Below are positions 31,107-33,952 of a DNA stretch of 33,952 bases, in pieces. The notes beneath the pieces were generated by a model. The model was not told the origin of the DNA, ran no database searches, and saw only the letters and a program-made list of their open reading frames with translations. Within the stretch, counting starts at the first letter, position 1; every line of letters starts with the position of its first letter. The DNA is from Lewinella cohaerens DSM 23179 (lineage in GTDB: Bacteria > Bacteroidota > Bacteroidia > Chitinophagales > Saprospiraceae), in contig NZ_KB903565.1 of the NCBI RefSeq assembly GCF_000379805.1, positions 267,872 through 301,823 on the forward strand. Reading direction: 5' to 3'. The translations under genes and the position numbers were made by a program.

Positions 31107-31853
31107 ATGTTTGGTCTTATGAAAGAGGAGTGGATCAAGCTTAAGATAGGAACGATGGAGGTGCCCGTGCAGATCATTCGTGAAAAGCGGCGGAGCATCC
31201 GGGCATCTATGGGGAAGGATAACGTCATTATGCGGTTCCCTATCAATCTGCCCGCTGGGGAAGAAGTCGCTCATCGAGAACGGTTGACGAAGTGGCTGGA
31301 GAAGCAATACGAGAAAAAAGAGGGCCTTTTTCAGCGTTACCAAAAAGCTGATTATCAAGATGGGGATACGCTACGGGTAGGCGATCGACAATACGAGTTG
31401 AGATTACGTAAGGAAGACCGCAAGACGAGCGCAGCGAGCTTAAAGCAAGGCCAGATTGTATTGCGCCTTAATAAGAATCTTGACGAGCAGCAGTTTTCCA
31501 AATCCATCCGTACGCTCCTTAGCAGAGTGGTAGGGGCCGATTATTTACCCGAGATTACTCAACGCGTACAGGCCTTGAATGAGCAATATTTTCAGCGTCC
31601 ACTCAAAGGGGTGAAACTAAAATACAACCATAGCAATTGGGGGTCCTGCTCCAATTCGGGGAATATCAACCTGAGTACACGGTTATTGTTTGCGCCACCG
31701 GAAGTAGTAGATTACGTCATCATTCACGAGCTGGCGCATTTGGTGGAACTCAACCACTCGCACCGCTTCTGGGCCGAAGTAGCGAAGGCTATGCCGGATT
31801 ACGAAAAAAAGGAGGCTTGGTTGAAAGAGTTTGGGGCGGGTTGTGATTTCTAA
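31107..31853 (+). CDS. YgjP-like (M48-type) metallopeptidase
   Basis: This 248-residue, probably cytoplasmic protein of the YgjP/DUF45 family has the zinc motif HELAH (207-211) with downstream NHSHRFW (216-222), the arrangement His-Glu-x-x-His plus a third ligand near NHS. The N-terminal part has the family segment IIREKRRSIRASMGKDNVIMRFP, and WGSCSNSGNINLSTRLLF precedes the zinc motif. The physiological substrate of the family is not known to me. A second in-frame ATG at 31119 (MKEEWIKL) may be the true start, because the first ATG sits 2 nt after a strong stem-loop. It is convergent with the lipoprotein at 31926 and shares a perfect 23-bp terminator stem with it. Confidence 0.88.
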   Translation: MFGLMKEEWIKLKIGTMEVPVQIIREKRRSIRASMGKDNVIMRFPINLPAGEEVAHRERLTKWLEKQYEKKEGLFQRYQKADYQDGDTLRVGDRQYELRLRKEDRKTSAASLKQGQIVLRLNKNLDEQQFSKSIRTLLSRVVGADYLPEITQRVQALNEQYFQRPLKGVKLKYNHSNWGSCSNSGNINLSTRLLFAPPEVVDYVIIHELAHLVELNHSHRFWAEVAKAMPDYEKKEAWLKEFGAGCDF

Positions 31854-31861
31854 CCTAGCAC

Positions 31862-31913
31862 CTACCATCGCCTACAAGGCAAATTCATTAATTTGCCTTG
31901 TAGGCGATGGTAG
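31862..31913. terminator. Bidirectional 23-bp perfect stem-loop
   Basis: The arms 31862-31884 and 31891-31913 are perfectly complementary around a 6-nt loop (TCATTA). It lies 9 bp after the metallopeptidase stop and 13 bp from the stop of the convergent lipoprotein gene. It lacks a long T-run on either side, but its position fits a shared transcript end. Confidence 0.75.
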
Positions 31914-31925
31914 TGATGGAGGGTA

Positions 31926-32891
31926 CTATTGTTGAGCCCGCATCCACTTCAGGATATCCTGAGTGTTTTTGTTGGCAACGTTGGCGGGTAGGTCTACCAA
32001 ATCACGTGCGCCCAGGTCGATGGCGATCGGTGTGCGCCCTTCGTCCTGCTTGCGTAATACCAGTAGCTGATTGTTGCGAGCAGCTTGCGTTACCTGATCG
32101 GAAACTTGCTGTGGTTCCTCAAAAAGAGGGTAGAGCATGAAGTTATCTTCTTCTGCATCATAAAAAGGTAAGATAGCTTGTACACCACCTTCGGTAGGAA
32201 GCAGAAACATAGAATGGTAGCGGCTGTTGTCAGGGTCTTGCCATTCGGCAAAAGGCAAAACAGCTTTTGGCGCATTACGGTCACTAAGGTCAAAAGCAAA
32301 AGCACCCAAATCTTGGGTGTAACCCAAAAGGTAGTCTTCCCATACCTCTAGGCGTTGTACCATGCCAGACTGTGGGTCGTCGTACTCACGCTCACTGAAG
32401 AATTCAGGTTTCAATTCCGTGAGTTTGTAATCTTGTTCCAAATCACAGACGATAACCTTGTAAAAGCCTTGAATGCCAATAATATTACTGACGCTGTTGT
32501 ATTGTACCTCGGCAATATAGTAAGGGAAGTCAGGACTAGTGTTTTCCGGGAGTGTGGTTTGGAACTTTTGCTCACAGCTACGACCATCCAATATTTCCAG
32601 AATACGGTGGCTAGGGCCTAGCTCTTCGGTAGTTGTGCTTTCGTCCGCTTTGATGACGGCTAATACATCCGGAGATTTTATCCATACACGGTTGCCGTCT
32701 AACACCTCTCCGCTAATCTGGCATTCAGGCGGGCTAAGGGTAGGGGGCGCATCTTCTTCAGGTGGTGTAGTGGTAGAGGTCTCTGGTGTAGAGCTTGTAC
32801 TGTTACTGCTCGAAGTGCCAGTGTCGGTACAGGCAACCATCATTAATAAAGCAATAAGCAAAACCATAGGGGATAAGTGGCCACGGATCAT
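31926..32891 (-). CDS. Putative lipoprotein, unknown function
   Basis: This 321-residue exported lipoprotein has a good lipobox (MVAC, with Cys21 as the lipidated residue). A Ser/Thr/Pro-rich linker of about 35 residues follows. The remainder is a beta-rich domain: VWIKSPDVLAVIK, FPYYIAEVQYNSVSNIIGIQGFYKVIVCDL, VWEDYLLGYTQDLGAFAFDLSD, FMLYPLFEEP. The strand order hints at a propeller-like fold but no known family is recognised. The C-terminal part (NNQLLVLRKQDEGRTPIAIDLGARDLVDLPA) is well conserved in character. It is divergent from the BlaI/M56 locus. Its own promoter may be the TACCTTTA at 32915-32922. The BlaI-type operators lie about 80-155 bp upstream of that, so regulation by BlaI is possible but not shown. 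Confidence 0.8.
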   Translation of the reverse strand: MIRGHLSPMVLLIALLMMVACTDTGTSSSNSTSSTPETSTTTPPEEDAPPTLSPPECQISGEVLDGNRVWIKSPDVLAVIKADESTTTEELGPSHRILEILDGRSCEQKFQTTLPENTSPDFPYYIAEVQYNSVSNIIGIQGFYKVIVCDLEQDYKLTELKPEFFSEREYDDPQSGMVQRLEVWEDYLLGYTQDLGAFAFDLSDRNAPKAVLPFAEWQDPDNSRYHSMFLLPTEGGVQAILPFYDAEEDNFMLYPLFEEPQQVSDQVTQAARNNQLLVLRKQDEGRTPIAIDLGARDLVDLPANVANKNTQDILKWMRAQQ

Positions 32892-32914
32892 AGCGTAAGC
32901 GTTTGATTGAACAG

Positions 32915-32922
32915 TAAAGGTA
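32915..32922 (-). promoter_or_regulatory. Candidate -7 element for the lipoprotein gene
   Basis: On the minus strand TACCTTTA matches TAnnTTTG at all but the last base and would start transcription about 15-20 nt before the ATG. No TTG is present at the -33 position. Confidence 0.3.
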
Positions 32923-32997
32923 AAGAATTCCGGTTGTTATATCGTGGTTTACTTCTCTTACAAATTAGAGCAAGCTAAGAATAGGCAACTATTTTAG

Positions 32998-33013
32998 TAC
33001 GAATTATTTCGTA
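32998..33013. promoter_or_regulatory. BlaI-type operator 1
   Basis: TACGAATTATTTCGTA has perfectly inverted 6-bp arms (TACGAA, TTCGTA) around 4 nt. It lies just upstream of the -33 element. Confidence 0.75.
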
Positions 33014-33018
33014 GATAA

Positions 33019-33050
33019 TTTGCTTTTACGAAATGTTTCGTATATCATTG
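33019..33050 (+). promoter_or_regulatory. Promoter of the BlaI/M56 locus
   Basis: TTTG (33019-33022) and TATCATTG (33043-33050, one mismatch to TAnnTTTG) are separated by 20 nt, the normal Bacteroidota spacing. Operator 2 fills the spacer and operator 3 covers the expected start near 33057. Transcription would run about 360 nt before blaI. Confidence 0.65.
33027..33042. promoter_or_regulatory. BlaI-type operator 2
   Basis: TACGAAATGTTTCGTA has perfect 6-bp arms around 4 nt and lies between the -33 and -7 elements, so bound repressor would block RNA polymerase. Confidence 0.78.
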
Positions 33051-33053
33051 CAG

Positions 33054-33069
33054 TACGAATTGTTTCGTA
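33054..33069. promoter_or_regulatory. BlaI-type operator 3
   Basis: TACGAATTGTTTCGTA has perfect 6-bp arms around 4 nt and overlaps the expected transcription start. With its flanks it is identical to operator 1 except for one base. Confidence 0.75.
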
Positions 33070-33077
33070 GACTGTTG

Positions 33078-33102
33078 CTGCGGGTTTTTTCTCGCAGTTT
33101 TT
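33078..33102 (+). terminator. Terminator-like hairpin 1 in the blaI leader
   Basis: CTGCG (33078-33082) and CGCAG (33093-33097) form a 5-bp stem followed by T5. It is weak and lies 20 nt after the predicted transcription start. Confidence 0.35.
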
Positions 33103-33127
33103 GAAATCACTTGCTGTTGTTAATCAT

Positions 33128-33160
33128 CAGGGCGAATTCATGAATTTGCCCTGTTTTTTT
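33128..33160 (+). terminator. Terminator hairpin 2 in the blaI leader
   Basis: CAGGGCGAATTCA and TGAATTTGCCCTG form a near-perfect palindrome (33128-33153, one G-T wobble) followed by T7, with all features of an intrinsic terminator. It stands between the operator cluster and blaI, so transcripts from the operator promoter must read through it. Confidence 0.65.
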
Positions 33161-33411
33161 GCGCAATAAGAAACAGCACAAAAATAATTTGGGTCTTCGT
33201 TTTTAAAAAAGCTGGCAAAGTGATTCATTTCAAGCGTGCCAGCTATTTGAAAAACCTAAGAGAAGAAACAACTGATTTTTTGCGCAATAAGGAACAGCAC
33301 AAAAATAATTTGGGTCTTCGTTTTTAAAAAAGCTGGCAAAGTGTTTCATTTAAAGCGTGTCAGCTATTTGAAAAACCTAAGAGAAGAAACAACTGATTTT
33401 TTGCGCAATAA
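33161..33411 (+). repeat. 121-bp direct tandem repeat (two copies plus a stub)
   Basis: Copy 1 (33161-33281) and copy 2 (33282-33402) are identical at 117 of 121 positions, and the first 9 bases of a third copy end just before the blaI ribosome binding site. Each copy holds an inverted pair AGCTGGCA/TGCCAGCT (one wobble in copy 2) that can fold in RNA. No reading frame is conserved across both copies. Confidence 0.93.
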
Positions 33412-33418
33412 AAGGAAT

Positions 33419-33808
33419 ATGAATAAACCTACGGAAGGCGAACTGGAAATTTTACAGGTGCTATGGGCAAATGGCCCGGCCACTGTTCGCAGCATCAATG
33501 AACTGTTAAATCTTTCTACTCAAAAAGAGATTGGTTATACGACTACACTAAAGTTGATGCAGCTTATGGTGGAGAAAGGTTTGCTACAGCGAGATACCAG
33601 TAGCCGTACGCATATTTATGCGGCAGCGGTAGAAGAACAATCGATAAAACGCGGTCTTCTCAAGCAATTTGTGAGCAAAACATTCCGCGGTTCTGCGGCC
33701 CAATTGGTGATGGAAGCCTTGGGGCAGCACCAGGCATCAGGCGACGAACTGGCTGAAATCAAGGCGCTGATCAACCGTATGGAGAACGATAAAAACAAGG
33801 ATATATGA
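33419..33808 (+). CDS. blaI: BlaI/MecI/CopY-family transcriptional repressor
   Basis: This 129-residue winged-helix repressor has the characteristic start PTEGELEILQVLWANGPATV, the recognition-helix segment IGYTTTLKLMQLMVEKGLL, and a C-terminal dimerisation part beginning GLLKQFVSKTFRGSAAQLV. Members bind palindromic operators as dimers and are inactivated by cleavage when a partner M56 sensor (BlaR1/MecR1) is triggered. The ATG at 33419 is chosen over an in-frame upstream start (33341) that lies within the repeat. It is preceded by AAAGGA. The next gene starts within its stop codon (ATGA at 33805-33808), as in blaI-blaR1 operons. Three TACGAA-N4-TTCGTA sites upstream are candidates for its own operators. 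Which other genes it controls is not visible. Confidence 0.94.
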   Translation: MNKPTEGELEILQVLWANGPATVRSINELLNLSTQKEIGYTTTLKLMQLMVEKGLLQRDTSSRTHIYAAAVEEQSIKRGLLKQFVSKTFRGSAAQLVMEALGQHQASGDELAEIKALINRMENDKNKDI

Positions 33809-33952
33809 AAATGATTTCCTTATTCCTCGACTCTCCCATTGCAGAAACCCTGGGGTGGACAGTGCTTCATAGTTTATGGCAAGGGGTTTTGCTGGCGCTT
33901 ATTGTAAAGATTTTGTTGCAACTGGGAGCCAAATGGACTGCCAAGAAACGGT
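33805..33952 (+). CDS. M56-family (BlaR1-type) antirepressor, N-terminal fragment
   Basis: The gene overlaps the blaI stop codon by 4 bases (ATGA) and runs off the window after 49 residues. The visible N-terminus MKMISLFLDSPIAETLGWTVLHSLWQGVLLALIVKILLQL is a hallmark of M56 peptidase/BlaR1-like membrane proteins, whose N-terminal helix begins with LGWTLLHSLWQG. By family knowledge it is a membrane zinc protease that, when it senses a signal, causes BlaI cleavage. The zinc motif and sensor domain lie beyond the window, so the signal cannot be inferred. Confidence 0.85.
   Translation, partial: MKMISLFLDSPIAETLGWTVLHSLWQGVLLALIVKILLQLGAKWTAKKR

Follow-up and report, generated by a model that had tools for sequence, protein, structure and literature searches.

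The window, the whole 33,952-nucleotide stretch of Lewinella cohaerens DSM 23179 DNA analysed here, ends in a gene for a BlaI-family repressor and the start of an M56 (BlaR1-peptidase) gene, the two overlapping at ATGA, where the M56 start codon shares bases with the blaI stop. Upstream of the pair lie three palindromes around a putative promoter, and beyond them a divergent lipoprotein-like gene that starts 106 bp before the first palindrome. The features are as follows.

31926..32891, minus strand: divergent lipoprotein-like gene, 321 aa, without Pfam family
32998..33013, no strand: putative operator 1, TACGAATTATTTCGTA, exact match, at comparable distance in relatives
33019..33022, plus strand: −33 element TTTG, read from the sequence and from the relatives' consensus aTTTGca between operators 1 and 2
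33027..33042, no strand: putative operator 2, TACGAAATGTTTCGTA, between −33 and −7, exact match, seen in relatives
33043..33050, plus strand: −7 element TATCATTG, one base off TANNTTTG, read from the sequence and the relatives' consensus
33054..33069, no strand: putative operator 3, TACGAATTGTTTCGTA, over the predicted start, exact match, start from a position rule
33128..33160, plus strand: terminator-like hairpin of 11 pairs with a T run
33151..33411, plus strand: 121-bp dispersed repeat, two copies (2.2 units), between promoter and gene
33419..33808, plus strand: BlaI-family repressor gene, 129 aa, PF03965 at 88.6 bits against a cut-off of 22.6
33805..33952, plus strand: start of the M56 gene, 709 aa, running past the window (L005:3677-5806), PF05569 at 125 bits

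Palindromes, promoter and gene pair

The window contained exactly three zero-mismatch TACGAA-N4-TTCGTA palindromes, beginning at 32998, 33027 and 33054, with starts and centres separated by 29 and 27 bp, as the initial annotation had described. They surround TTTG-N20-TATCATTG, in which the end of the 20-nucleotide spacer between the −33 and −7 elements is filled by site 2 (33027-33042), directly abutting the −7 element at 33043; the middle site thus sits between the two elements, as had been claimed. In F. johnsoniae promoters the −7 element ends in a G at position −5 (PMC6847099), and this rule places the predicted +1 at about 33055, within site 3, in agreement with the earlier assignment of the third site to the start. 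When up to three mismatches were allowed, the window held 15 matches against 12.7 expected, so that the exact cluster alone stands out.

Across the 7.3-Mb genome, the exact motif occurred at four places only, namely the three array sites and one place within an ORF on contig C79, and is thus not scattered at random. With up to one mismatch, 36 places were found as opposed to 32 for the reversed control; near-matches in this genome are therefore background, and a regulon built on them was rejected. Eleven of the 32 one-mismatch places, in 10 regions, comprised nine within ORFs and two in intergenic DNA.

At the sequence level, the gene pair presents the features of the BlaI/MecI family: PF03965, an adjoining M56 peptidase gene and dyads over its own promoter. 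An M56 gene followed blaI in 108 of 108 loci having at least 900 nt there. Pfam detected no penicillin-binding domain in the window's own M56 protein or in nine relatives, all 10 of which have the peptidase domain (seven complete; L189, L194 and L202 partial, 2,400 nt), and the NCBIfam model blaR1_generic scored 95 bits on the M56 protein against a threshold of 400, covering model positions 105-319 of 585 only. As the scan of seven complete and three partial proteins gave no sign of a penicillin-binding sensor, beta-lactam sensing is unsupported; the pair appears to resemble BlaI-BlaR1 in layout and should not be classed as a beta-lactam sensor. The same lipoprotein-like divergent neighbour of blaI was present in 15 loci, this one included (14 relatives), and may be co-regulated with blaI.

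Conservation and geometry of the array in relatives

We searched by protein similarity 60 related genomes and one genome per species of a public collection, retaining the best 80 of 570 loci from the latter, where candidates had been picked by two peptide patterns. This yielded 112 distinct BlaI proteins above 100 bits (27 + 7 + 78, the 78 coming from the best 80 of 570 loci), with identical proteins counted once and near-identical ones kept separate; the motif-recruited loci L048-L108 were excluded from these counts and included in the comparison with 17 distant homologues described below. At least two TACG-N8-CGTA sites were found within 450 bp upstream of 110 of the 112 homologues, a set that includes those from the best 80 of 570 loci. 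Under a stricter rule, which also restricts the half-site base, the count was 109 of 112, L166 dropping out, and at least one exact TACGAA-N4-TTCGTA was present upstream of 89 of 112. In the two exceptions, L022 and L039, the arrays stood roughly 1 kb away on the upstream side, where an additional DUF6624-like gene (below the Pfam cut-off; L022:1956-2855, L039:504-1481) separates them from blaI, and the putative operators stay with the operon's predicted promoter.

The reversed motif was found 0 times in the same upstream DNA, as was the true motif in 460 bp downstream; judged by these sequence counts, the array before blaI is not due to chance. The 17 more distant BlaI homologues had no qualifying site upstream. 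The named loci, among the best 80 of 570, include Saprospiraceae, Hymenobacter, Spirosoma, Pontibacter, Pedobacter, Chitinophaga, Roseivirga and Thermoflexibacter, and one locus (L192) is labelled Oligoflexales, the label being that of the record. As a separate observation, the distant homologue L160 (G017:C159), with the helix ITTLNTVLQRL, has upstream TACTACAAGTGTAGTA, reminiscent of the classical TACA/TGTA operator.

Exactly three sites were present in 51 arrays, the commonest steps being 30+27 (12 arrays) and 31+27 (8 arrays), and the 29+27 steps of the window recurred in 4 of the 51. The relatives' consensus reads op1-aTTTGca-op2-TATATnTTTG-ag-op3, with variable loop bases and with spacing and half-sites kept across arrays, while in some arrays two sites alone remain, at a distance of 54-58 bp, which would fit decay of the middle one. 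Of the 110 arrays, 55 carried the strict promoter pattern TTG-N17..22-TAnn[TAC]TTG close to their last two sites; 50 mononucleotide shuffles gave a mean of 0.58.

Predicted recognition helix, candidate targets and known repressors

Residue 46 of BlaI falls within the stretch aligned to MecI residues KTIRTLI, which we take to be the recognition helix. In a comparison of 110 rows, the window's own protein included, TACGAA accounted for 282 of 308 half-sites with L46 and 122 of 154 with I46; where G39 was paired with a different residue at 46, the figure was 20 of 42, and eight proteins combining V39/R39 with M46/T46, which make up two well-supported clades, had 0 of 38. Proteins with F46 followed no single rule (TACGAA fraction 1.00 in L040, 0.75 in L223 and 0.33 in L044), and residues other than L or I at position 46 are under-sampled because one of the candidate-picking peptide patterns has L or I there. 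The TACGAA type and the other type coexist as paralogues in six genomes (G001, G017, G020, G023, G026 and G033). A permutation test of the helix-operator association, with relatedness ignored, gave 0 of 20000, and an independent-pairs sign test, comprising three supported pairs, was not significant (median p 0.5). In this comparison, position 6 of the half-site tracks residue 46 in the predicted recognition helix, but few independent switches between types are supported.

Beyond blaI itself, 32 distinct exact-site clusters were examined in genomes of the 80-genome scan, 29 of them in loci with this BlaI; the remaining three lay before a PF00144 hydrolase gene (L066 and L097) and between an S9-peptidase-like and a small gene (L060). 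Exact sites summed over the 80 genomes numbered 115, against 57 for the reversed control, and the sites away from blaI did not exceed that control. Among 32 single sites without BlaI, 26 were placed against ORFs, 15 of them being intergenic; the sites outside this placement were L109-L112, L115 and L092, which sits next to a blaI fragment where its contig ends.

PF00144 beta-lactamase-fold hydrolases stood directly behind one or two putative operators in four genomes (L066, L097, L071 and L087). The L066 hydrolase, which scored 66.9 against a threshold of 415 for the NCBIfam class C beta-lactamase, has two close orthologues (63% and 53% identity) among 80 family genomes, and sites were located just upstream in three of three close orthologues, L066 included, two of these being pairs. 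Among remoter hydrolase homologues, the 27 examined had no site within one mismatch; a further PF00144 gene outside those 27, L087 in G032, had a single site 25 bp before it. In G084, the gene that follows the hydrolase (L113:4229-4558) is a distant BlaI-family member lacking this helix, and it could be a rival regulator of the hydrolase. Three MacB/FtsX-type permease genes (L069, L074 and L076) had one site each. Since sites elsewhere than at blaI are no commoner than the reversed motif, the permease link is only suggestive and the hydrolase link alone carries weight; as a candidate operator target, the hydrolase offers a stronger link than the permeases.

The window's BlaI matched six solved sequences, among them MecI (1okr, 1sd6), the penicillinase repressor (1sd4) and 2g9w, deposited as a 'conserved hypothetical protein' and presumably M. 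tuberculosis BlaI, of which the N-terminal part matches and which has YTT at the helix start. Staphylococcal BlaI and MecI, whose dyads at the blaZ and mecA operators lie over the promoter, are alike in that a PF03965 repressor is encoded beside an M56 peptidase gene. Their operator is TACA/TGTA (PMC7253601), whereas the array here consists of TACGAA-N4-TTCGTA at three sites, does not match the classical TACA...TGTA half-sites, and precedes an M56 gene in whose product no penicillin-binding domain was found. The CopY/CopR copper repressors are homologous and likewise have multiple operators; they differ in the RNYKACANNTGTMRNY operator and in a metal-binding Cys-X-Cys (PMC7253601), whereas the BlaI of the window has no cysteine.

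The initial annotation had set the operator apart from the TACA/TGTA type; this difference stands, but TACA/TGTA is not the sole other BlaI operator. C. thermocellum BlaI_0696 and BlaI_1845 have GTCTAT/GACTAT repeats, five nucleotides apart, in two dyads (PMC8457756). They are alike in their small autoregulatory regulons, with ordered multiple dyads before their own operon and BlaR1 genes within, and differ in having the GTCTAT half-site and two dyads, compared with TACGAA and three here (PMC8457756). Given these non-TACA/TGTA operators and ordered multiple dyads, the kind of operator is already known (PMC8457756). In the open BlaI literature, judged by title and abstract among the matches listed, neither this operator nor any Bacteroidota BlaI operator was described.

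Probable self-repression of the operon and alternative readings

The three palindromes are very probably operators of the BlaI encoded just downstream, which would make blaI-M56 a self-repressing operon. From the sequence, geometry, conservation, gene order and helix-operator correlation, we infer binding, repression, cleavage and signal in the following form. BlaI dimers, as expected from the family, would tile about 72 bp, upstream of the −33 element, between −33 and −7, and over the start; with BlaI bound, RNA polymerase could not engage and the operon would repress itself. The M56 membrane metallopeptidase from the same operon would presumably cleave BlaI on a signal, by analogy with BlaR1/MecR1, and in some relatives the same putative operator also stands before a beta-lactamase-fold serine hydrolase. 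Points against this explanation are the occurrence of the strict promoter pattern in only half of the arrays, the small number of independent events behind the helix-operator correlation, and near-matches in this genome that stay at control level.

The description of the layout as a strong one for repressing the downstream gene agrees with the geometry in relatives, but applies here with a qualification: the terminator-like hairpin and two dispersed-repeat copies intervene before blaI, making the layout less direct than in relatives. With this hairpin and repeat in the way, transcription may end ahead of blaI, and blaI expression may be altered in this genome. It is conceivable, albeit somewhat unlikely, that the array here drives a short transcript uncoupled from blaI, in which case transcripts from about 33055 would end near 33160 and blaI would be expressed from the inserted repeat. 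The hairpin with its T run (fold of 33051-33160, z −4.3) fits such a course, as do the two repeat copies, absent at this place in three other genus members (G001-G003), and the start of the last site 365 bp before the gene, compared with 96, 148 and 167 bp in those members; the operators, however, are still perfect, which suggests selection, and the terminator scan returned four sites against 2.1 in shuffles, so that the single terminator match is weak evidence. A like hairpin (cf. 33128-33153) is present in the sister genome G002 without the T run, which here comes with the repeat.

We consider it very unlikely that the divergent lipoprotein gene is the main target of the operators or that a different regulator binds them. 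That neighbour is conserved in its 15 loci, but of 104 loci with an identified nearest upstream ORF, 47 have it codirectional with blaI, and the promoter elements point toward blaI; a different regulator would also have to be squared with the joint variation of half-site and BlaI helix and with the 17 distant BlaI homologues that have no such sites. Extremely improbable is the proposal that the palindromes are RNA hairpins or protein-independent structure rather than operators: operator 3 can fold at the transcript 5′ end, yet the first two operators precede the predicted start, and variable loop bases combined with kept spacing and half-sites argue against a role in folding.

Extending the proposed self-repressing operon to the phylum, we tentatively suggest, as a possible but doubtful model, a widespread Bacteroidota BlaI-M56 switch responding to envelope stress rather than to beta-lactams, in which a differently sensing M56 protein would derepress the triple-operator promoter and, in some lineages, the hydrolase and the MacB/FtsX permeases, and in which paralogues would be kept apart by residue 46 reading operator position 6. 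For a repressor-peptidase pair common in Bacteroidota, the array provides an operator that can be put to the test, a possible rule linking helix to operator specificity and a candidate target; it could also serve as a compact, native repressible promoter in a phylum whose promoters are unusual.

The 121-bp repeat has 43 matches in the genome, the window's included, some being parts of one array, and 27, 9 and 2 matches in the three other genus members; none was found in 16 genomes of other genera, so that it is genus-restricted among the 20 genomes compared. Its copies are intergenic, occur as 1-3 tandem units in both orientations and fold into a long hairpin, in which 12 of 37 predicted pairs had both partners changed in one or more of 23 copies, with a small covariation term (−0.93). 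In 13 of 39 regions, no more than 34 bp separated the end of the repeat from the next downstream start as called mechanically. No Rfam family was found over the repeat, for which a MITE- or REP-like element and a structured RNA are both candidate identities; over 31800-33952 as a whole, Rfam returned nine matches, all well under gathering scores. Separately, a long near-perfect inverted repeat at 31853-31924, whose sole Rfam matches were microRNA models far under gathering scores, lies where the YgjP-like and lipoprotein genes converge and is possibly a two-way terminator.
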